Positions 7,539 through 22,512 of a stretch of DNA of 64,000 nucleotides are shown here, in pieces. Where the stretch lies: assembly GCA_945881845.1 (NCBI GenBank), contig CAMCVN010000004.1:1-64000 (forward strand), in the 5' to 3' direction. Numbering within the stretch: position 1 is the stretch's first letter; each line of letters opens with the position of its first letter. The notes beneath the pieces are model-generated. The model worked only from the letters and a program-made list of their open reading frames with translations, did no database searches and was not told the DNA's origin. Source of the DNA: Bifidobacterium breve. GTDB lineage: Bacteria; Actinomycetota; Thermoleophilia; Solirubrobacterales; Solirubrobacteraceae. A program made the position numbers and the translations under genes.

Positions 7539-9584
7539 TCAGTAAGGCCAGATCGAAAGACGACATGCCTGCTTGAGCGGGCAGACGTCGGTGAAGCGGC
7601 CATTGAAGAAGTCCGCTGCCTGCTGGCCGCGAGAGATGTCAAAGAGGCCGTGGGGATCCTGGCCCGCACGCGGAGGCGTGTTTGTCAGCGGCGGCACGTT
7701 GGTGCCAATTGTCGCCCCTTCAAACTGGCGGATCGGGCCGCTGTCGAAGATCACAAGCCGCGAATCGCTGCTCTTGCCTTTACTGCGGATCCCCCAGAAC
7801 GGCACCTTGTCGAAGCTGCGGCCGCTGCTGTAGACAGGCCTGCGACCTACGGCGCCAACCGTCCGCGCGAGGTTCTCTGCCGCCACCTGAGGAACCTGGT
7901 GGTCGCCGACGACGGCCTCCAAGAGCACTTGGTGCGATGGAGTTCCCGGGAGGGGATCATCGGTTGCGTGCAGCGCGTAGCCATTGCCTTCGCCTCTGTC
8001 CCATAGGTTCTGAACCGCGCCGAGGATCAAGAGCCGCTTGAGCCGGTTCGGGTAAGAGGGAGCGAAGAAGCCGTCGGAGTACTCGTCAAAGTCAACGCTG
8101 CGCGGGAGCAGGAGCGAGTAGTTCATGCCAGGCACACCAAGAACTGCGCGCGTGAAGTCGGGCGCAAGGGCAGTGATCGCAGGCCCAAGAATGCCTCCCT
8201 GACTGTTGCCGTTGAAGGCCAGCTTCGAGCGGTCGATCAAGGTTCGACCTGAGGCTCCCGGGATCGAACGCAGCGATGGGTGCGAGGCGAGCCCTTCCGC
8301 GTGGATCATCAAACGTCCGAGCATCAGCCCGTTCAGAAGCCCCTGCTGAAGACGGTCCGGGAAAGAGGCGAAGAGCGACATGTCGCCGAGCAGCCTGATC
8401 GCGTTGAGGGCGTCACCGCCAGCCATTCCGATCTCATCGGTGCCGCAGAAGAGAATCCCGTGCTTGTTGCCGAAGAACTGATTCTTCTCGCCCAGAGCTT
8501 CGCGTGACGACCCGAGCAGACCATGGCCGTAGATGACCGGTCGAGCCGGCTTATCGAGGGCGCTGCGAGGGATACCGCAGACGAACTTTGCCTTCATCGT
8601 CCCTTGCTGTTTCGGAATCCAGTTGAACTTGCCCGCCTTGCGTGGCTGGTAGCGGAAGGTTCCTCCTGGCGCGCAGTCCGGCGTGCTCAGGTAGCAGGGA
8701 ACGGTCATCGTTCCTTCTAGCTGGCGCAGCTGCAGCGGGTTCTGCTGCTCGGTGAAATTGATCGTCTTGTCGATCTGGAACTTGGGCGAGCGGCCGGCGA
8801 CCTTTTGATCGGCAAGGTTCTTGTCCCCGAGAGCAGCGAAGCTGGCATTGCGCATCGCGAGCGCTCGCTCGGTCAGGTTTGTCTCGCTGACAACCGTGAA
8901 GTCCCAAGCTAGATAGAGCGTTGAACGCTTAATGCCGATCCGTCCAAGGAGGTCAAAATCAGGCTTCATTCGGCGCGCACGAACCGCCAGCGCCCCGCTT
9001 GCTTTGCTGTCTCGCACCGACGCGAATGCCGCGCCGGCCCGGATTGTGGCGCCCGATCCGTTCTTCAAGTTGCGCAGCGCGACGATGTAGCGACGCCCTT
9101 CCGGCAGGTTGCGCGCCGGCCGAATCATCACGAGGTAGCTCCCGTCGGCCTCGTTATCGGGATTTGCGTCGAGTTCGACCCAGATTGGCTGACGCTTGCC
9201 GGTCTTAGCGTCAACGAGAACGATCGGCGCATTGGTGGCGCTGTAGCTGCCGATGTCGGTGATTGGGGTTGCGCCGCTGCGCTGGAGGCTAATCCCATCA
9301 ACGTAAGTCATGATCGCCGCGCCGGGGCTAAAGCCGTCGTTGTTGTTTAGGTCAGGCGTAAAAGACGAAACCCCGCCGACGTTCTTCGGGAAGAGAGCAG
9401 CGTTGAAGTTGAGCCTCAAGCCGGTCGCCGAACCACGCTGAGGGGTCGTGAAGTGGTTGCTGGGGAACGGCAGCAGGCAGTCGCGCGCGTCGAACGGTTC
9501 GCAGCTCGCCTTCGCGCTGGCGACGCCGCTAAGCGCCATGAGGCTGCAGGCGGCAAGCGCAAGTGTTGCGACTAGCTTGTTCAA
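7539..9584 (-). CDS. Secreted alpha/beta-hydrolase-like protein; paralog of 56488..58584
   Basis: Signal peptide; GNSQGG elbow-like motif; extended similarity by eye to the 698 aa protein at 56488. Confidence 0.75.
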   Translation of the reverse strand: MNKLVATLALAACSLMALSGVASAKASCEPFDARDCLLPFPSNHFTTPQRGSATGLRLNFNAALFPKNVGGVSSFTPDLNNNDGFSPGAAIMTYVDGISLQRSGATPITDIGSYSATNAPIVLVDAKTGKRQPIWVELDANPDNEADGSYLVMIRPARNLPEGRRYIVALRNLKNGSGATIRAGAAFASVRDSKASGALAVRARRMKPDFDLLGRIGIKRSTLYLAWDFTVVSETNLTERALAMRNASFAALGDKNLADQKVAGRSPKFQIDKTINFTEQQNPLQLRQLEGTMTVPCYLSTPDCAPGGTFRYQPRKAGKFNWIPKQQGTMKAKFVCGIPRSALDKPARPVIYGHGLLGSSREALGEKNQFFGNKHGILFCGTDEIGMAGGDALNAIRLLGDMSLFASFPDRLQQGLLNGLMLGRLMIHAEGLASHPSLRSIPGASGRTLIDRSKLAFNGNSQGGILGPAITALAPDFTRAVLGVPGMNYSLLLPRSVDFDEYSDGFFAPSYPNRLKRLLILGAVQNLWDRGEGNGYALHATDDPLPGTPSHQVLLEAVVGDHQVPQVAAENLARTVGAVGRRPVYSSGRSFDKVPFWGIRSKGKSSDSRLVIFDSGPIRQFEGATIGTNVPPLTNTPPRAGQDPHGLFDISRGQQAADFFNGRFTDVCPLKQACRLSIWPY

Positions 9585-10115: not shown

Positions 10116-10146
10116 TCAGCTAGAGAGTCTGCCGAAGCCGGCCAGC

Positions 10147-10190
10147 GAGTGCGCAGCGCGTACGCAGCACGTACGCAGCGCGTGCGTTGT
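10147..10190. repeat. Short tandem repeat, about 11-bp unit (gagtgcgcagc/gcgtacgcagc/acgtacgcagc/gcgtgcgttgt)
   Basis: Direct reading of the intergenic region; the last copy is degenerate. Confidence 0.8.
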
Positions 10191-10357
10191 CTCGCACCGA
10201 ACGGGCGGGGAAGAACGCTGAGCCACCCCGCCTAACTACGCATCGTGACGTGGCCAAACCGTGAAATGCAGCGGCAACGAACGTCTGATTTGTGCGCCAA
10301 TCAACCGAGATCCAGGGTCTGAGGACTGCGAGTGTTTCTCGAAACCAATTACGTCTA

Positions 10358-10387
10358 TATGACGGCGACCGGCGTCGGTATGACGGC
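10358..10387 (+). promoter_or_regulatory. Direct repeat TATGACGGC x2, 21 bp start-to-start, upstream of the TasA-like operon
   Basis: tatgacggc at 10358-10366 and 10379-10387; function inferred. Confidence 0.45.
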
Positions 10388-10415
10388 AGTCGATCAGATA
10401 AGGAGAAGTTCGTAA

Positions 10416-11006
10416 ATGCACTCGATTAGCCGCAAGATTCTTACAACTACAGCGATACTCGGAGTCTTCGGCGCTATCGCCGGGGCCGGCGTGTTCGCGC
10501 TCTTCACCAGTCAAACTGAGAACACGGCAAATGCCGTTACGGCCGGTACCGTTGCCATCTCGGACAACGACGCCGGCAGCTCGATGTACACGCTGCCGGA
10601 CGCCAAGCCGTCCGACACGAAAGTCTCCTGCATCCGAGTGAATTACACCGGAACGCTCGACGCTGACGTCAAGCTCTACATCGGCGAAACGATCGGCGCA
10701 CTCGGCCCGTACGTGAAGCTGAAGATTGAGTCGGGGACGCAGAGCTCACCAACGTTCCCAAGCTGCACTGGGTTTGTGCCCGACGCGACAGCAATCTATG
10801 ACGGCACTCTCAGCGCGTTCGCTACGGCGCACTCGTCGTACACAAACGGACTGGCCGACAACCCGGGCACTGTTGCGACCAAGTGGGCAACCAGCGACGC
10901 GGTTATCTACCGGGTTACGGCAACGCTCGATCCCGCTACACCGGACGCCCAGCAGGCAGGTATCACCAACGCGCACAAGTTCACCTGGGCGGCGAAGAAC
11001 CAGTAG
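10416..11006 (+). CDS. TasA/CalY-like protein with SipW-cognate class signal peptide
   Basis: Signal GVFALFTSQTENTANAVTAGTVAISDND resembles the SipW-cognate consensus; adjacent SipW-type signal peptidase; SD aaggagaag. Confidence 0.8.
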   Translation: MHSISRKILTTTAILGVFGAIAGAGVFALFTSQTENTANAVTAGTVAISDNDAGSSMYTLPDAKPSDTKVSCIRVNYTGTLDADVKLYIGETIGALGPYVKLKIESGTQSSPTFPSCTGFVPDATAIYDGTLSAFATAHSSYTNGLADNPGTVATKWATSDAVIYRVTATLDPATPDAQQAGITNAHKFTWAAKNQ

Positions 11007-11029
11007 CCGCAGCTGGCTACGCGGCCGCC

Positions 11030-11569
11030 ATGGCATCTGCCTCTCGCATCGACAGCGCACGCTGGGCCGGGCTCCTCGCGGGGCTCGGCCTGGTGGTCGC
11101 CGCATTCGTTGCTTGGCAGATGCCGGCCTCGGGCCAAGCGCTGGGAGCCGACGTGACGGTCATCGCTACCCCGCACGGGGAACTCGTCGCCGCACCGCTC
11201 TCGCCAACCCTCGCCGCGCGCGGGCTGACCCCCGGCGATGCGCGCCATCACTCGCTGACACTGACGAACATCACCGGAGTCCCGCTCAGCGTCAGATTTC
11301 GGGCCTTGCCATCGAACAGCGACCTCGATCAGACGGTGGAACTGACGCTCAGCGACAACGGCCGCACCGTTGCGGCCGGAACCCTCGCGTCGCTGCGGCA
11401 ATGGACAGCGCCACTTCTGCGCCTTCCGGTTCGAGCCGTGCGCCGTTTGATGCTGACTGTGCGACTACTCACGCCCAGAGAGCAAGCCGGCATCGGCGCG
11501 AGTGCGCAGACGGCTGGCATGGTCGTCGACGTCCCGCTTGAGATCAGCGCTGCCGGTGAAAAGCGATGA
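11030..11569 (+). CDS. TasA-like beta-sandwich secreted/membrane-anchored protein
   Basis: N-terminal hydrophobic segment; LTPGDARHHSLTLTNITGVPLSV resembles TasA/CalY N-domain; start chosen at ATG 11030 after the previous stop. Confidence 0.6.
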   Translation: MASASRIDSARWAGLLAGLGLVVAAFVAWQMPASGQALGADVTVIATPHGELVAAPLSPTLAARGLTPGDARHHSLTLTNITGVPLSVRFRALPSNSDLDQTVELTLSDNGRTVAAGTLASLRQWTAPLLRLPVRAVRRLMLTVRLLTPREQAGIGASAQTAGMVVDVPLEISAAGEKR

Positions 11570-12105
11570 GCTCCGGCGCTGTGCACACGGCCCGGTTTCT
11601 CGGCTGGCTGCTGCTGGGGGCGATTGGAACGGTGATCGTGATGACCGTAGTCGGGCTCTTCATCGGACAGCGCCCGTTCACGGTCCTGACAGGCAGCATG
11701 TCGCCGACGATCGAGGCGGGCGACGTCGTGGTAGTCAAGAAGATCAGCCCGCTCGACGCGCAGGTCGGCAACATCGTCTCGTTCACAGACCCGGGAGGAA
11801 GCGGTGAGATGATCACCCACCGCGTCCGTTCTATCCGTTCGCGCGGAGCAGCCGTCGACTTCCAAACCCAAGGCGACGCGAACAATGTCAGTGAGCGATG
11901 GACGGTTGCCCGCAGCGGCGCAGTCGGGCTTGTGACAGAGCGCATTCCCGTAGTAGGCAACGCCTTGGTCTACCTCAGCGGTCGCCCGGCGCGGCTGCTG
12001 CTGATTGTGATCCCTCTCTTGCTGCTGGCATCACTCGAGATCTGGCACGTATGGAAACCACGAGATTCTGCTGGCGCTGATCGGCCGATCGATGAAGCGG
12101 CGTGA
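11566..12105 (+). CDS. sipW: Signal peptidase I, SipW/ER type
   Basis: LTGSMSPTIEAGDVVVV and ITHRV (His in place of the bacterial Lys), TQGDANN; hydrophobic N- and C-terminal segments. Confidence 0.9.
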   Translation: MSSGAVHTARFLGWLLLGAIGTVIVMTVVGLFIGQRPFTVLTGSMSPTIEAGDVVVVKKISPLDAQVGNIVSFTDPGGSGEMITHRVRSIRSRGAAVDFQTQGDANNVSERWTVARSGAVGLVTERIPVVGNALVYLSGRPARLLLIVIPLLLLASLEIWHVWKPRDSAGADRPIDEAA

Positions 12106-13090
12106 ACTGCTCTCAGGCGCGGCGCTCGGGCTCTGCCTGATCGGCGCGGCGGTGCTCGCGCTGACGGGCCTGACAGGGGTCACCTACAGCGCATTCACAT
12201 CGAGCACGAATGACTCCGGCAACCTCGTTTCGGCTGCGCCCGATTTCAGCGCACCGTTGATAACGGCAAGCGTTATCGGCAAGAGCAGCGGCAGGGCGAC
12301 AGGCGCGATCAAGCCAGGCGCAACCTACTACGCCTATGCGAACCTGACCGAAGACGGCAACCCGTCGAGCGGTGTCGCAGCGGTCACTTCGGACCACAGC
12401 GCGTTTGACAGCGGGATAGCGGCAGCTCCATTGACCGCTGGCAGCTACACGGCGGGTGGAGTTAGCTACGGCTACCGCAGCGCACTACTGACTGCCGACA
12501 CTCCGAAGGCCGATGGAACCTACGCATATAGCTTCGCGACCAGCGACATAGCTGCCAACACGCGCGCGCAGACAGGCTTCAGCGTCAAGATTGACGGCAC
12601 GGCCCCGAGCGCCAGTGACATTCAGACCACGAATGGCGGCGCGATTGCCGGCCGGCCGGAAGCCAACGACACGATTGTCTACAGCTTCAGCGAAGCCGTC
12701 GACCCAGAGTCAATCCTCGCTGGCTGGAGCGGCGGCGCGACCGATGTCGTCGTTCGGATCGACAACGACGCCGCGGCGGGAAGCAACGACCGAGTGACCG
12801 TCTACAACGCCGCCAACAGCGCACTGCTGCCGTTTTCGTCGGTCAACCTCAGCCGTAACAATTACGTCTCAACGAACCGCACCTTCGGCCGCACCGGGAC
12901 GAAATCAACGATGACGATGAGCGGCGCAACGATCACGGTCAGGCTCGGAACGCAGAGCGGCAACGCGACAACCGCTTCAGCGGGGGCAGCGATGATCTGG
13001 TCACCTGCCGCCGGCCCGACCGACATTGCTGGCAACGCAATCTCACTGACCGCGCGTAGCGAGACGAGCGGCTCCGACCGGGAGTTCTAA
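12092..13090 (+). CDS. SipW-cognate-signal secreted protein
   Basis: N-terminus TGVTYSAFTSSTNDSGNLVSA; Ig-like/beta-rich composition; 14-bp overlap with sipW. Confidence 0.7.
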   Translation: MKRRELLSGAALGLCLIGAAVLALTGLTGVTYSAFTSSTNDSGNLVSAAPDFSAPLITASVIGKSSGRATGAIKPGATYYAYANLTEDGNPSSGVAAVTSDHSAFDSGIAAAPLTAGSYTAGGVSYGYRSALLTADTPKADGTYAYSFATSDIAANTRAQTGFSVKIDGTAPSASDIQTTNGGAIAGRPEANDTIVYSFSEAVDPESILAGWSGGATDVVVRIDNDAAAGSNDRVTVYNAANSALLPFSSVNLSRNNYVSTNRTFGRTGTKSTMTMSGATITVRLGTQSGNATTASAGAAMIWSPAAGPTDIAGNAISLTARSETSGSDREF

Positions 13091-14352
13091 CGCACCAGAC
13101 GAACCGGTGGCTCACCGCTGCCGGAGGTGACGCCCGCGCCGCGCGCGATCGCGACGATCCGCGCTACGTAAGCCTGCGTTTCGGCGATCGGCGGCACGCA
13201 CCAGCAGGCAGCAACGCGGCCGGGGCCAGCGTTGTACGCGGCGAGCGCCAGTGGCACGGAGGCAAAGCGGCGCAGCAGGTCGTGCATCATATGAGCCTGT
13301 GCGTTGATCGCGGCAACCGCGTCGAACGGGTCGCTGAGGCCGTAGCTGCGCGCCGTCCCCGGCATGAACTGCGCGATCCCCTGCGCGCCGGCGGTGGAGA
13401 CGGAGCGCGGATCAAAGCCCGACTCTTGCTGAAGCTGCGCCGCCAGCAGCGCCGCGCCGACCGACCAGCCCGAAGCGGCGCGGCGCAGCGGCTCGCGGTA
13501 GGCGACCGGCACGAAGTTCGGGACAGCGCTGGCCGCGCCAGCGCCGGGAGGAGCGAACCCGACCGAGGCGCTGCCTGGGTTCGAGATCAGGCCGTAATGC
13601 CAAGCCTCCCAAGAATACCTCTGCACGAATCCAAAGCGCTTGGCGTTCGCCGCTAGCCAGCCATAGGCAGCGGGCGGGCCTAGATCGAGCTCGGTTCCGA
13701 GCCGGTGCAGCGACTGACCCGGAGGAGCGACCCACTTCGGATCGGGGTGAGCGGCGAAGAGCCGGGCCTGTTCGGCATTGGAGCGGTAGCCGCTGGTAAC
13801 CGTCAAGCCGATGCCGCTTCGCCGCGCCGCGGCGGCCATCCGGTCAAAGGCCAGCGCCGTATCTGGCCGCATCGGCTTGCCTTGGCGATAGGCGTACGGG
13901 CCGGGGTATTCGCCATCTCCGATCGGAACAGCGAACGCCGCTAGCTGCGCCTCGGCGGTCACCGGGCCGGAAACGAGGCCGCCGCCGGGAACGCGAATCG
14001 GGTCACTGACGGTAACGACAACGCGGTCCGGCAGCGGCCCCGACGCGAAGCGCACCGCGACGCGGCGCGCGCCGTTGCGGCCCGCCGTCCGCTGCGCGAC
14101 CGAGCGAGCCAGCGCGAGGTAGGCACTGGCGCTGAGATGACGGCCAGAGCCCGGTGGCTCGAGCGCGCGCGGAAAGGCGTCAACCAGCGCCCGCGCGCCG
14201 GCCAGCGCGGCCAGATCGGCGGCGCGCTGATGGTCGGCATGGGCGCCAAGCCCGCGCGCCAACATCCCCAGCCCGCCGGCGCCAACGAGCAGCGCTGCGG
14301 TAGCTCCGACGACGAGAATCAGCGCCTGCCCATCCTCCTCCCCTGCTCTCAC
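13087..14352 (-). CDS. TadG/Rv3654c-like N-terminus fused to VanY/M15 peptidase and SLT lytic transglycosylase
   Basis: N-term DGQALILVVGATAALLVGAGGLGML...DLAALAGA; SGYRSNAEQARLF...SLHRLGTELDLG...WEAWHYGL; QQESGFDPRSVSTAGAQGIAQFMPGTARSYG. Confidence 0.88.
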   Translation of the reverse strand: MRAGEEDGQALILVVGATAALLVGAGGLGMLARGLGAHADHQRAADLAALAGARALVDAFPRALEPPGSGRHLSASAYLALARSVAQRTAGRNGARRVAVRFASGPLPDRVVVTVSDPIRVPGGGLVSGPVTAEAQLAAFAVPIGDGEYPGPYAYRQGKPMRPDTALAFDRMAAAARRSGIGLTVTSGYRSNAEQARLFAAHPDPKWVAPPGQSLHRLGTELDLGPPAAYGWLAANAKRFGFVQRYSWEAWHYGLISNPGSASVGFAPPGAGAASAVPNFVPVAYREPLRRAASGWSVGAALLAAQLQQESGFDPRSVSTAGAQGIAQFMPGTARSYGLSDPFDAVAAINAQAHMMHDLLRRFASVPLALAAYNAGPGRVAACWCVPPIAETQAYVARIVAIARGAGVTSGSGEPPVRLVR

Positions 14353-15197
14353 GCGGGCGGCCCGGCGTTTGCGCGGGCCTCAACGCTGAGCAGCCGCGCA
14401 AGTCCGGGCAGCAAACTCGGTGGACTGATTGCCACACGCAGCTCACGGCCGCGGCGCGTAACGCGAAGCTGAGCGTGCGACCAGCCGGGCAGGGCGCGCC
14501 GGGCAGCGGCCTGCGGATCGCGGCTCTGCAGCAGAGCCGTTGCACCGGCGCCGGCTGCATCGCCCGCAAGCTCGCGGCAAAGCCCCGCTGCCAATAACTG
14601 AGCGGCGGCCAGCGTGACGGCCAGAAGAATTGGGATCGCCGCGACAAGCTCGACCGAGGCCTGCCCTTCACTGCGCGCCAGCCAACCCCAGCTAAGGCCC
14701 GCCCCGCAGATGCGCGCCGATGCCGAGCCCGGAGGATCAAGCAGCTCAGCGTCGGCGCCGAGCTGCGCCAGCTCCGTGATCGCAAGCTGGTCTACGCGGT
14801 CATCGCTCGAACGAGCAAGCACAACCCGTCTGGCGACGCTAATCAGCGCATCGAGTTCAGCCTCGCGCGGCCGCAGCGCTACGACGACGACCGGAATCCG
14901 AGCAGCAGCGATCAGCCGCTCCGCGGCAGCGACAGCGTCATCCCCGTCGCACTCCGTCATCACGAGCCGCCCGCGCGCGCTGGCGACCACACCCTGCTCG
15001 GCAAGTTGCTCGCAGTAACGGGCGGCGGCGGCCAACGGCGGAGCGGCCCAGCGCCGACGTGGCCGGGTCGGGCCGAGCAGCGTAATTACCAGCGCCGCAT
15101 TCTCTGAGCAGTCGCGCGCGAGCGCGACGGCCTCGGTCGGGGCGAGCATCTCAACCTCGTCCTCCCCGCCGAGCACGACGAGCGCCGCCTCCAGCAT
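14349..15197 (-). CDS. TadE-like pilin domain with unusual ~180 aa N-terminal domain
   Basis: SEGQASVELVAAIPILLAVTLAAAQLL is TadE-like; preceded by a soluble-looking domain. Confidence 0.65.
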   Translation of the reverse strand: MLEAALVVLGGEDEVEMLAPTEAVALARDCSENAALVITLLGPTRPRRRWAAPPLAAAARYCEQLAEQGVVASARGRLVMTECDGDDAVAAAERLIAAARIPVVVVALRPREAELDALISVARRVVLARSSDDRVDQLAITELAQLGADAELLDPPGSASARICGAGLSWGWLARSEGQASVELVAAIPILLAVTLAAAQLLAAGLCRELAGDAAGAGATALLQSRDPQAAARRALPGWSHAQLRVTRRGRELRVAISPPSLLPGLARLLSVEARANAGPPA

Positions 15198-15541
15198 CAG
15201 TTTCCTTCCGATTGCTCGCCGACTCGGGCCGTCGCACTGCCGAGCCGCAGTCCGCCGACAACGGCCGGGACGGCGAGGCGCACGGTCAGCCCACCGCCAG
15301 CGCGACGAGCGAGAACGAGCCGCCCACGAGCGCCGCGTGGCAATGCGCGCCGCGCCGCGCGGCCAGGGTCAGTACCAACGATCTGGGCTCGCGCTGCGGC
15401 CCGCGCCGCGATCCCCGCGAGCCACCACGATTGCCCGACGACGACGGCCTGCCAGGATCCAACTACTAGCGCTGCTATCAGCGGTAGTAGTGCCACCAAT
15501 TCGACGGTTGTTTGACCGCTCGTGTCGCGCAGATCAGCCAC
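15197..15541 (-). CDS. TadE-like protein
   Basis: SGQTTVELVALLPLIAALVVGSWQAVVVG. Confidence 0.75.
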   Translation of the reverse strand: MADLRDTSGQTTVELVALLPLIAALVVGSWQAVVVGQSWWLAGIAARAAARAQIVGTDPGRAARRALPRGARGRLVLARRAGGGLTVRLAVPAVVGGLRLGSATARVGEQSEGN

Positions 15542-16956: not shown

Positions 16957-17631
16957 CTATTCGGAGGGAAATTCCTTGAAAAGCCCGGTTTCAACGAAGA
17001 CAACCTGTTCGCCTACTCCCACCGCATTATCGCCAATACGCTCAATTGCCCGCGCCATCAGCGTCATAGTCATCGCCCATTCGCGGCGATCAATCTCATC
17101 GCCGACATTGACCGCGAGCCTGAAGACCTCAATATTGAGCCGGTTAACTTCGCGATCCTGCCGGGAAAGGTCGTTCGCAAGCTCGACGTCGCGCCCGCGG
17201 AATGCGAGCCGTGCCTCCTGCACCTCGGCCCGCGCGGCAGTACCCATCCGCAGCACACGGTCAAGCAGCTCCGGCACGATCGGCGGCTCGCTGCCGACGA
17301 TCGGGATCAGCTTCGCGATGTTGACGCACTGATCGCCCATCCTCTCGGCGTGCTTGATCAGGTGAAGCAGCGCGGCGACCAAGCGCAGGTCACTGGCGAC
17401 CGGCGCCTGCAGCGCCAGCAGCGACAGGATCCCCTGATGGACTTCGAGGTAGCGGCCGTCAATTCGGTCATCGTCGGCGATCACGAAAGTCGCCAGTTCG
17501 ATGTCTTGATTCTCGACCGCTTCCATCACGCGGTCGATCTGCTCAACGACGAGGTCGAGTGCTCCGAGCGCCTGCTCTTCGAGCAGAGCTAACTGATCGT
17601 GGAACTGCGGCCGGGCACTCTGCCGCTCCAC
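16957..17631 (-). CDS. phoU: Phosphate transport system regulator PhoU
   Basis: PhoU repeats; position after pstB; GTG start at 17631. Confidence 0.93.
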   Translation of the reverse strand: MERQSARPQFHDQLALLEEQALGALDLVVEQIDRVMEAVENQDIELATFVIADDDRIDGRYLEVHQGILSLLALQAPVASDLRLVAALLHLIKHAERMGDQCVNIAKLIPIVGSEPPIVPELLDRVLRMGTAARAEVQEARLAFRGRDVELANDLSRQDREVNRLNIEVFRLAVNVGDEIDRREWAMTMTLMARAIERIGDNAVGVGEQVVFVETGLFKEFPSE

Positions 17632-17635
17632 TGGA

Positions 17636-18604
17636 TCAGCCGAACTTCCCGGAGACGTACTCCTCCGTGCGAATGTCGTGCGGGTTGGTGAAGATTCGGT
17701 CGGTCGGGCCGTACTCGACGAGGCGGCCGATCCGCGCCTCCTCCGAAGAGCCCATGTCAACGATGAAGAAGGCCGTGCGGTCAGAGACGCGCGCGGCCTG
17801 CTGCATGTTGTGCGTGACGATCACGATTGAGACCGTCTCTTTCAGCTCGTGCATCAAGTCTTCGATCCGCCCGGTTGAGATTGGGTCGAGCGCCGAGCAC
17901 GGTTCGTCCATCAGCAGAACATCCGGGTTGGTCGCCAGCGCGCGGGCGATGCAGAGCCGCTGCTGCTGACCGCCGGACATTCCGAAGGCATTGTCTTTGA
18001 GCCGGTCCTTGACGTCATCCCAGAGCGAGGCGCGGCGCAGAGCCTCTTCGACGATCTGATCCATCGAGCCCTTCATCCCCAGCACCTTGGGGCCAAACGC
18101 GATGTTGTCGTAGATCGACTTCGGGAATGGGTTCGGCTTCTGGAAGACCATGCCGATCCGCTTGCGGACCTGGACCGAATCGATGTCGCTGCCGTAAAGA
18201 TCAACTCCGTGATAACGGACCGTCCCTTCGACGTGAGCCCCTGGAATCAGGTCGTTCATCCGGTTGAAGCAGCGAATGATCGTTGACTTGCCGCAGCCGG
18301 AAGGCCCGATGAATGCGGTTATCTGCTTCTCGGGAACGCGCAGCGAAACATCAAGCACGGCTGGCGCGGTGCCGTAGCTGACGGAGAGCTTCTCGGTGAT
18401 GAAGACGGGGTTGTCGATTGCGTCATCGATCACGTCGGCGTGGGCAACCACCGGTACCGGCGCGTGCGGCTGCCCTGCCGGCACAGCCGGAACCTCGCCG
18501 GGGACGGCTGGAAGACCCGGCTCGTCGCGCGGTTCTGAGGATGAGGAATCTGAATCGCTCACTTCGCGAAGGGTACTGGCCGGGGTTAGCTCGTCGTCTG
18601 ACAC
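17636..18604 (-). CDS. pstB: Phosphate ABC transporter ATP-binding protein
   Basis: [39 protein letters not shown] start after the pstA stop. Confidence 0.95.
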
Positions 18605-18606
18605 TT

Positions 18607-19509
18607 CTACCACCTCTGTTGGTATCGATTGCGCAGCCTGATCGCGACAGCATTGAGAATTACGAGAATTACCAGCAGCACAATGATCGCCGCCGCCGCC
18701 AGCATGCGGAACTCGTCGTTCGGCTGCGAGATCCAAGAGAAGATCTGCAACGGCAGAGCGGTGAACGGCGAGTCGAGCCCGGTCGGATTGAATGCGACGA
18801 AGGTCGCGGCGCCGACGAGGATTAGCGGCGCCGTCTCGCCGATAGCGCGCGAGATCGAGAGGATCACGCCGGTAGCGATGCCGGGGATTGAGGCCGGAAG
18901 GATCTGCCGCCAGATCGCCTGCCAGCGCGTCGCGCCGAGTGCCAACGCGCCCTCCTTGATCGACGGCGGCACGGCGCGCAGCGCCTCACGGCCGGTGATG
19001 ATTACGACCGGCAATACAACCAGCGCCAGCGTCAGGCCGCCGGCCAACACGGTGCGACCAAGCGAGAGCGGCCCACGGACGATGTAGGCGAGACCAAGGA
19101 TTCCGTAGACAATCGAAGGCACGGCAGCGAGGTTCTGAATGTTGACCTCGATCGTGCGATTCCACCACCGCGTACCGTCGGCGAACTCCTCGAGATAGAG
19201 CGCACTGGCAACGCCGAGCGGCACGATCACGAACGCCACCACAGCCATCAGCCAGAGCGTGCCGGTGATCGCCGACTCAATCCCCGCCTTGGCTGGGAAG
19301 GCTGACGGGAAGCTGGTCAGGAATGAGATGCTGAGCTGCGGAATGCCATCGATCGCGGTGTCGATCAGCAGCACCGCGAGCACGATCAGAGCGATGCTGG
19401 TGAGCACCCCCAGCAGCAGAATGAAGCTTCTGTCGCGCAGCGTGCGTGCGGCCGGCGGAACGCCAAGTACCTCGCTGGATGGGCGCGCACTGGCCTCGGC
19501 GCTGGTCAT
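18607..19509 (-). CDS. pstA: Phosphate ABC transporter permease PstA
   Basis: Pst permease motifs, operon position. Confidence 0.95.
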
Positions 19510-20462
19510 TCGTAAACCTGCCGGTAGCGACGGACAAAGCGAATCGAGATCATGTTCAGGATCAGCGTCATCAGGAAGAGCGCGAAGCCGACCGCGAAGA
19601 TCGCCTTGTACCCGGTTGAGCCTGTCGGCACGTCGCCTTTGCCGGTCGCGCCGATGAAGGCCGTCATCGTCTCCATCGGGTTGCGCGGATCGAGCGAAGT
19701 CGTCGGTACTTGGCCGGCCGCAATCAGCACGACCATCGTCTCACCGACAGCGCGCGAGGCGCCGAGTACGACTCCCGCCGTGATCCCCGAAAGCGCTGCG
19801 GGAACAACCACCCGCACCGTCACCTGGCGGCGACTTGCGCCGAGGCCATAGGCGCCTTCGCGCAGGCTCTGCGGCACGGCCGACATTGCGTCCTCGGCGA
19901 CCGACGCGACCGTTGGCACGATCAGCACGCCGACGATGATGCCCCCAGCGAGGCCGTTGAAAACCGAAACGTCCATTCCCAAGAACCCTTGGAGAACCGA
20001 TGGGGTGAAGAAGGTAAGCGCGAAGTAGCCGAAGACAACGGTCGGCACTCCGGCAAGCAGCTCAAGCGTTGGCTTTACTGCCTTGCGGACCCGCGGGCTC
20101 GCGTACTCACTGAGGAATGCTGCCGTACCGATGCCAAGCGGGATTGCCACGATCAGCGCAATTCCACTGATTATCAGAGTTCCTTGGACTAGCGGACGGA
20201 TTCCAAACTGCGGGTCAGAGAAGAGCGGCGTCCACTGCCCATCGGTGAGGAAGCCGCTGGCAGTGACCGCATCGTCGGCGAAGAAGGCCAGCGTCTCGCC
20301 GGTCAGCGAGACGACGATCCCAACAGTGATCACAACCGATGTAGCCGCCGCGCAGAAGAGCGCGAAGGCGATCGCCTTTTCGCCAATACGGCGGCGCGCT
20401 GGGCCGAATACCGATTCGGCAGTCGGCCCAGCTACACCACTCGCGATCGAAGGGGTCGCCAC
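19506..20462 (-). CDS. pstC: Phosphate ABC transporter permease PstC
   Basis: Pst permease motifs (SLREGAYGLGASRRQV), operon position. Confidence 0.95.
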   Translation of the reverse strand: MATPSIASGVAGPTAESVFGPARRRIGEKAIAFALFCAAATSVVITVGIVVSLTGETLAFFADDAVTASGFLTDGQWTPLFSDPQFGIRPLVQGTLIISGIALIVAIPLGIGTAAFLSEYASPRVRKAVKPTLELLAGVPTVVFGYFALTFFTPSVLQGFLGMDVSVFNGLAGGIIVGVLIVPTVASVAEDAMSAVPQSLREGAYGLGASRRQVTVRVVVPAALSGITAGVVLGASRAVGETMVVLIAAGQVPTTSLDPRNPMETMTAFIGATGKGDVPTGSTGYKAIFAVGFALFLMTLILNMISIRFVRRYRQVYE

Positions 20463-20474
20463 AGGTGCGACGCC

Positions 20475-21419
20475 TTAGCTGCCTTCGGCCTTCGACAACG
20501 CGGCCTTGGCCTCCGTCAACTGAGCGGCCGTGAGCGGCACGATCTGCGCCGTCTTCGCGGACTCGTCAGCGTTAGCGACGACGTAGTCGATGAACGCCTT
20601 GACCTGCGGCTTGTCGGCCAGTGACGCTGTGTTGACGTACATGTAGAGCATCCGTGAGAGCGGCTTGTAAGTGCCATTCTGGATCGTCTCAACCGATGGC
20701 TTGATGCAACCATCGCCGCCGTCTACGCCAACTAGGTTCAGCTTGTCGGCATTGGTCTCGTAGTACGAGAAACCGAAGTAGCCGAGCGCGGTCTTGTCGC
20801 CCTCAACACCCTGAACAAGAACGTTGTCGTCCTCAGATGGCTGGTAGTCGGTCCGCGTGTTGCCCTTCTCGCCGTTGATCTCCTCGGTGAAGAAGTCGAA
20901 CGTGCCGGAATCGGTTCCTGGGCCGTAGAGCGAAACCTTGCCGGCCGGCGTGCCGCTGCCGAGCTGGCTGTAGTTGCTGACGGTTGAGCCCTTCTTCCAG
21001 AGCTGATTTAGCTGATCGGTCGTCAGGCAGGCGATCTTCAGATCCGGGTTTGTGACGATCGCGATGCCATCATTGGCAACCGCGATCTGGGCGTACTCAA
21101 CGTTGTTCTTCTTGCAGATCGGGACCTCATCAGCGTCATCGATCGGCCGTGAAGCGTCAGCGATGTCAATCTCTCCAGCACAGAACTTTTCGAAGCCGCC
21201 GCCAGTGCCGGACTCACCGACCGTGATCTTGACGTCCGGGTTTTCACCCTGGAAGCCCTCGGCCGCAGCCTGAGCGAATGGGAAGACGGTGCTTGAGCCG
21301 TCAACGGCTACAGCACCAGAGACGGAGCTAGTGCTGCCGCTGTCGCTACTACTGCCGCAGGCCGCGACTGAAAGAGCGAGCGCGCCAGCTAGAACGGTGA
21401 TGATCAATCGTTTCTGCAT
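20475..21419 (-). CDS. pstS: Phosphate ABC transporter substrate-binding lipoprotein
   Basis: Lipobox LSVAACG; VDGSSTVFPF, GESGTGGGF, YGPGTDSGTFDFF ligand motifs. Confidence 0.95.
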   Translation of the reverse strand: MQKRLIITVLAGALALSVAACGSSSDSGSTSSVSGAVAVDGSSTVFPFAQAAAEGFQGENPDVKITVGESGTGGGFEKFCAGEIDIADASRPIDDADEVPICKKNNVEYAQIAVANDGIAIVTNPDLKIACLTTDQLNQLWKKGSTVSNYSQLGSGTPAGKVSLYGPGTDSGTFDFFTEEINGEKGNTRTDYQPSEDDNVLVQGVEGDKTALGYFGFSYYETNADKLNLVGVDGGDGCIKPSVETIQNGTYKPLSRMLYMYVNTASLADKPQVKAFIDYVVANADESAKTAQIVPLTAAQLTEAKAALSKAEGS

Positions 21420-21452
21420 AGGAGAATTGAGCCTCTCTAATCGGGTTCATTA

Positions 21453-21506
21453 ATTGTACGGGACACTGGCACGTCGGCCGCCCGAGGTTATGAACGTGCT
21501 GTTAAC
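21453..21506 (-). promoter_or_regulatory. Putative pstS promoter: -10 TACAAT with upstream PHO-box-like 11-bp repeat
   Basis: Minus strand GTTAACAGCAC/GTTCATAACCT (21485-21506), then TACAAT (21453-21458). Confidence 0.6.
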
Positions 21507-21552
21507 TGCAACAACGAGATCTTGCGCTGGCGATCAGCCAGCGATTTGCTTG

Positions 21553-22512
21553 TCAGCCCGTGATTTGCTTGTAACGGCCGGTCTCGCGCAGCCAGCGGGC
21601 TCGCTCGTCGATGATCTGCTCAGCTGTTAGCGGCACAAGGAAGTAACTGCTTGCAAATCGAGCGGCGTTGGCCATCGTTACTTCGACAAAGGTCCCGACC
21701 GCCGTCGCCGGACCGGAAGTCGCGCGGTCGAAGTAGTAGTAGAGCGGCCGTGAAGGCTGGTAGCTGTGATCCTGGATCGTGGACAGTTTCGGCGCAACGC
21801 AGCCGCTGCCGTCATCGACCGCGACCGTGCTGACCGGTGACAGTTGATCGCGAACCCAGGCGTAGTCGAAGTAGCCAAGCGCGTTCTTGTCGGCCGCGAC
21901 CGCTGCGATCAAGGCCGCAGCTTGCGGATAGACGTAAGGCTTGTAGTCGCTGCGTGAATCGCCGGCCCTGCCGCTGATCGTTGACGTGAACAGTTCGAAT
22001 GCGGCCGAGCTTGCCGTCGGCCCAAAGAGCGACACCGGCGCCGCCGACAGGCCGCCGCCGAGTTGGTCGTAGTTGTCAACCTTCGAACCGCTCTTCCAAA
22101 GCGAATTGAGCTGCGAGCTAGTCAGGCAGCTGGCGCCGAGCGACCGGTTGGCGATCACGACCGCTGCCTGATGGGCGACGATCAAGCGTTGGTAGTTGAC
22201 GCCGTTCTTGGCACAGGCACGCTGTTCGCTTGAACTCAGCGGCCTCGTCACGGCAGCGATTTCGACCTTCCCAGCACAGAACCGCTGCAACGCAGCGCTA
22301 TCGCCCGACGCCAGCACCGCGGTCGTCGAGTCGCCGGTGACTTCGCGGAAGATCTGCTCAGCTTTTTCATTGAAAGGTTGCATCGATCGCGAGCCATCGA
22401 TGACAACGCGGCCGCTCACACTCTGCAGCTTGGCCGCCGAGTCAGCGCCGCAGGCGCCGAGCGCAAGCACGAGCGCTGCACAGATGACTAGCCCAACAAA
22501 CCTCCGCTGCAC
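21553..22512 (-). CDS. PstS-family paralog with altered ligand motifs
   Basis: Colinear with pstS (IDGSRSMQPF, SGDSAALQRFCAG, LFGPTASSAAFELF, NALGYFDYAW); lipobox ALGACG; GTG start. Confidence 0.88.
   Translation of the reverse strand: MQRRFVGLVICAALVLALGACGADSAAKLQSVSGRVVIDGSRSMQPFNEKAEQIFREVTGDSTTAVLASGDSAALQRFCAGKVEIAAVTRPLSSSEQRACAKNGVNYQRLIVAHQAAVVIANRSLGASCLTSSQLNSLWKSGSKVDNYDQLGGGLSAAPVSLFGPTASSAAFELFTSTISGRAGDSRSDYKPYVYPQAAALIAAVAADKNALGYFDYAWVRDQLSPVSTVAVDDGSGCVAPKLSTIQDHSYQPSRPLYYYFDRATSGPATAVGTFVEVTMANAARFASSYFLVPLTAEQIIDERARWLRETGRYKQITG

Follow-up and report, generated by a model that had tools for sequence, protein, structure and literature searches.

The window, that is, the whole stretch of 64,000 nucleotides analysed here, comes from a freshwater actinobacterium (Actinomycetota) and carries at positions 10416-13090 a cluster of four open reading frames, all on the + strand. 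The first, P1 (10416-11006), encodes a secreted TasA/camelysin-like protein of 196 aa with a probable SipW-type leader, recognised through Peptidase_M73, its family profile A1, and Foldseek. It is followed by P2 (11030-11569), a protein of 179 aa for which an AF2 model and Foldseek predict an N-terminal membrane helix and a TasA-like beta domain. P3 (11566-12105), also of 179 aa, is a SipW-like signal peptidase of the S26B type, assigned by TIGR02228, a SEC11 match, and its catalytic residues, while P4 (12092-13090) is a secreted, probably Ig-like protein of 332 aa with a SipW-type leader and a conserved C-terminal domain, identified with the family profile A4. The preliminary description of the locus had listed four tightly packed genes here; its coordinates are right and all four reading frames are present. 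P2 and P3 overlap by 4 bases (ATGA), P3 and P4 by 14 bases, and a clear Shine-Dalgarno site is found only in front of P1, where AAGGAGA (10400-10415, + strand) closes a 5' region of approximately 270 bases. The overlaps and the single Shine-Dalgarno site indicate that the genes probably form one operon with coupled translation. Scanning upstream of P1 revealed no sigma-70 consensus, and the terminator scan gave nothing clear either. The sequence ATGACGGC occurs twice just upstream of P1 (10356-10390), with the copies approximately 22 bases apart; it is present in one copy in G008, a genome of the same genus.

P1 scores 22.5 bits against Pfam Peptidase_M73 (camelysin), exactly the gathering cut-off of 22.5, which places a camelysin/TasA domain in its sequence; the same model is matched by 13 of 19 P1 relatives (best 2.8e-9). 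Taken at its word, the Pfam name would make P1 a camelysin-type metalloprotease, to which the score at the threshold and the 13 matching family members lend some weight. However, the match spans only approximately 70 N-terminal residues, the P1 alignment contains neither a conserved HExxH nor any other evident metal site, and Peptidase_M73 also covers the structural TasA/CalY proteins; a protease is considered highly improbable. When the P1 family profile A1 was compared with the PDB, TasA (5of1/8aur) ranked first, with E of approximately 7e-5. The NCBIfam TasA model NF046066 does not match the P1 of the window at E 0.01; it matches six of the 19 P1 relatives, the best at 7.9e-6. In the AlphaFold2 model of P1 (pLDDT 76) residues 18-41 fall below 50, a very low confidence in a monomer model that is expected of a free donor strand. 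Against solved structures, Foldseek placed the TasA fibre 8aur first (E 3.5e-5, probability 1.00, TM-scores 0.50/0.44) as the sole match with E < 0.001; the archaeal bundling pilus 7ueg came second. The presumed cleavage, FA|LF, lies before residue L29, and the donor-strand-like segment LFTSQTENTANAVTAGT comes next.

The AF2 model of P2 (pLDDT 79) consists of an N-terminal helix at residues 7-29, predicted to be a membrane helix, and a beta domain, and its top Foldseek match is again the TasA fibre 8aur (E 5.8e-4, probability 1.00). P2 matched none of the protein family models and has no direct sequence link to TasA; a direct profile comparison between P1 and P2 was not significant (probability 4.7%). 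P2 would be TasA-like by its predicted fold alone. In the preliminary description the TasA-like domain had been assigned to this second gene: the fold appears to be there, but by sequence it is the first gene that is clearly homologous to TasA. A structural match to TasA was one of the points on which that description had made its reading depend, and the models of both P1 and P2 have the TasA fibre as their best match. With TasA the two models reach TM-scores of only 0.50 and 0.45, modest values that count against the interpretation as a fibre. The relative G018 has an additional gene downstream of the cluster that was included in neither alignment; the profiles of P1 (5e-7) and P2 (9e-8) both match it, at one and the same position, and so link P2 with the superfamily of P1. 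Judging from the model, P2 is likely to act as an anchor or a nucleator.

P3 reaches 84.7 bits with TIGR02228, the archaeal/ER-type signal peptidase model (cut-off 51.85), and stays below the cut-off of the general bacterial model TIGR02227 (32.3 bits, cut-off 47). A profile of the P3 family, built from 19 relatives, matches SEC11C/SEC11A with E from 6e-18 to 2e-16, far ahead of the LepB-type enzymes. Ser44 (GSM), His85 (THRV), and Asp104 (GDAN) are invariant in the 19 relatives, and the marks of the S26B signal peptidases can be recognised, as His replaces the Lys base and Ser-His-Asp is intact; the ER-type peptidase with a His base in THRV, proposed earlier, is confirmed by these data. The S26B type is upheld by TIGR02228, whereas the score with NF046067, the Bacillus SipW equivalog model, is 64.7 bits, far below the cut-off of 190. 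By that model P3 is not a SipW equivalog, but it may work in a SipW-like manner. A general LepB is encoded apart from the cluster, on contig 8 (140.9 bits, above the cut-off), and general secretion therefore probably does not depend on P3.

The presumed cleavage sites of the putative substrates of P3 share a feature: an aromatic residue occupies position P2' in all 19 P1-type and all eight P4-type sequences, and in the proteins of the window position P2 is aromatic as well, F in P1 and Y in P4, the presumed cleavage of the latter lying at TYS|AFTSSTNDSGN. Aromatic P2' residues reportedly make cleavage by the E. coli LepB inefficient, and the tryptophan at position P2 of TasA was found to block the LepB active site (PMC10269814). 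The TIGR04088 model of the SipW signal (cut-off 19 bits) gave 13.6 and 17.3 bits for P1 and 13.6 bits for P4. Since single proteins remain below the cut-off, the evidence for SipW-type leaders comes from the families; the SipW-cognate leaders ascribed earlier to P1 and P4 stand on the aromatic P2' residues but not on the model scores of the individual proteins. A position-specific matrix, derived from the 17 residues that follow the presumed cleavage in P1, was applied to the eight P4 proteins. Each of these has 308-319 offsets, and in all eight the equivalent site outranked every other; its score was good in seven of them and poor in that of G018. The highest score of the matrix in any P2 protein was 2.1, and a SipW-type leader is absent from P2. 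The segment after the leader is thus common to P1 and P4 and belongs to the most constant parts of both; in TasA this segment is the donor strand (PMC9674648). A third candidate substrate, encoded on contig 25 among copper-resistance-like genes, scored 15.0 bits with the SipW signal model and was taken as a chance match.

The similarity of P4 to Pfam Big_13 is weak (17.8 bits, below the cut-off of 27), and the family profile A4 finds the Ig-like domains of 2yn3, an entry for the giant adhesin SiiE, with E 2.9e-6. P4 orthologues adjoin P3 in relatives.

P1 is present in 16 of 61 relatives, and all 16 encode an S26B peptidase (E < 1e-10), which was found in only one of the 45 relatives lacking P1. 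The two genes lie no more than 2 kb apart in 15 of the 16 genomes. Strong P2 matches (E < 1e-30), searched for in the 61 relatives and 247 sampled genomes of the phylum, all directly adjoin a P1 gene. P1-type genes were detected in 43 of the 247 phylum genomes, six of which, five of them outside the class, have strong P2 matches. Their occurrence outside Firmicutes is accordingly not new in itself, and the suggestion that such a set would be unusual there found no support. A scan of a genome-contig collection returned a single near relative, an Actinomycetota MAG. In four relatives (G018, G046, G052, and G054) the gene order is P1a-P2-P1b-P3-P4, where P1b is an additional gene of the P1 type that the window and G008 lack. 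The version in the window could therefore be reduced, and it might be asked whether a formerly larger fibre cluster is decaying here, with its second TasA-like gene already lost. This is improbable: all frames are open and have been kept under constraint since the split from G008 (dN/dS values are given below), and full-length P1b is also missing from G037, G040, and G059. In L036-L043, loci of the relatives, the second P1-type gene separates P2 from the peptidase gene; some also have a longer TasA-like gene downstream, and L043 has on the opposite strand a gene for a protein of 600-700 aa with a P1-type leader.

Within the genus the cluster was found in two of 17 genomes, that of the window (G000) and G008; two others, G006 and G016, contain a different SipW-type cluster. 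In six congeners (G005, G007, G011, G012, G013, and G014) the flanking genes are approximately 30 bases apart and the site is empty, with the motif AGTCTGCCG.AAGC at the junction of the flanks, and both the window and G008 have the operon at this site. The short distance in the congeners identifies the operon as a clean insertion: an island of approximately 2.95 kb (10139-13086, ends approximate), comprising the whole operon, lies between the thioesterase gene and a TadG/VanY/SLT gene. In the thioesterase tree G000 and G008 group together with a support of 0.86, and the other flank groups them weakly, which fits a single gain without proving it; the loss of the cluster from the other congeners is the alternative course of events. 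The dN/dS values between the window and G008 are 0.18 for P1, 0.12 for P2, and 0.13 for both P3 and P4, indicating purifying selection on all four genes and conservation beyond chance.

Taken together, these features make it fairly probable that the cluster is a TasA/camelysin-type surface-fibre operon in which P3 matures P1 and P4, P1 polymerises, P2 anchors or nucleates the fibre, and P4 provides an adhesive end, with a putative role in adhesion or biofilm formation. Besides the modest TM-scores, this reading is weakened by the lack of significance in the comparison of the P1 and P2 profiles, by the results of P1 with NF046066 and of P3 with NF046067, by the possible reduction of the cluster through the absence of P1b, and by its presence in just two genomes of the genus. 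P3 would cleave off the leaders of P1 and P4; with aromatic residues around their cleavage sites, both would be processed poorly by the general LepB. Once matured, P1 would polymerise head to tail, its freed N-terminal strand entering the next subunit as in TasA. P2, with a TasA-like predicted fold and a membrane helix but no leader strand, would anchor or nucleate the fibre, and P4, with a P1-like leader strand on an Ig-like body, would join it as an adhesive end piece. Our assignment of proteins to the two ends of the fibre is an inference that takes TasA as its guide, in which each subunit receives the N-terminal strand of its neighbour (PMC9674648). A more specific arrangement, a three-part donor-strand fibre with P2 as a membrane base that only accepts a strand, P1 as the shaft, and P4, able to donate a strand but devoid of a TasA-like domain, as the distal adhesive tip, is put forward tentatively; if true, it would represent a pilus free of sortase and usher that has both its anchor and its tip adhesin built in. 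It is also possible, though rather unlikely, that P1 and P4 are SipW-dependent secreted surface proteins that form no fibre, the cluster only giving soluble or wall-associated proteins an export route of their own. In favour of this, TasA exists as a folded monomer too (PMC9674648), P1 is short and only distantly homologous, the same leader occurs on P4, which is not TasA-like, and fibres have so far been unseen in this lineage. Against such an export route speak the top fold matches of P1, a TasA fibre and an archaeal bundling pilus, and the constancy in P1 and P4 of the segment that is the donor strand in TasA.

The fibre operon envisaged here resembles tapA-sipW-tasA of Bacillus subtilis in having a TasA-like secreted subunit, an adjacent ER-type signal peptidase, a leader with an aromatic P2' residue, and accessory secreted proteins. 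It differs in that P2 has a predicted membrane helix and lacks a SipW-type leader, P4 is probably Ig-like, with a domain content other than that of TapA, the gene order is different, and the phylum is Actinomycetota. The sipW-tasA/capP/calY genes of Bacillus cereus and sipW-bsaA of Clostridium perfringens likewise unite SipW with accessory factors and at least one TasA-like or polymer-forming protein, and the parts of the two reports consulted describe no counterpart of P2 or P4 (PMC13082335, PMC7395162). The bundling pili of Pyrobaculum calidifontis, represented by 7ueg, are also TasA-like fibres outside Firmicutes; unlike the present case they are archaeal. The types of leader and peptidase are already modelled in NCBIfam (TIGR04088/TIGR04089 for SipW-dependent exported proteins, and TIGR02228), although P1 and P4 are below the cut-offs of the leader models and P2 has no model. 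A search of the open literature, with most subscription papers outside its scope, found no work on TasA/SipW fibres of Actinomycetota. The gene set is real and conserved but of an already recognised kind, known mainly from Bacillus biofilms; its apparent novelty lies in the constant combination with P2 and P4. The fibre reading would add a conserved operon of Actinomycetota to the TasA-type donor-strand fibres studied in Bacillus and archaea, and with it two additional parts, a membrane-anchored protein of TasA-like predicted fold and an Ig-like protein bearing the fibre leader, and would offer a small, testable system for studying the anchoring and capping of donor-strand fibres.

Several other features of the surrounding DNA were recorded. 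The product of the gene at 7539-9584 (- strand) is secreted and lipase-like, and it weakly resembles VolA/Pla-1; its identity to the congeneric counterparts varies from 94% to 58%, so that this flank looks mosaic too. On the other side, at 13087-14352 (- strand), a single polypeptide joins a Tad/TadG-like N-terminus to VanY carboxypeptidase and SLT lytic transglycosylase domains, and it has matches over most of its length in most congeners. Two TadE-like genes adjoin it (14349-15541), and the sequences suggest that together they make up a locus for a Tad-type pilus that brings its own peptidoglycan hydrolases. Further along, at 16957-22512 (- strand), the translated reading frames comprise Pst phosphate uptake genes together with a gene for a PhoU-like protein and a tandem pair for substrate-binding proteins; winged-helix response regulators are encoded at the flanks.
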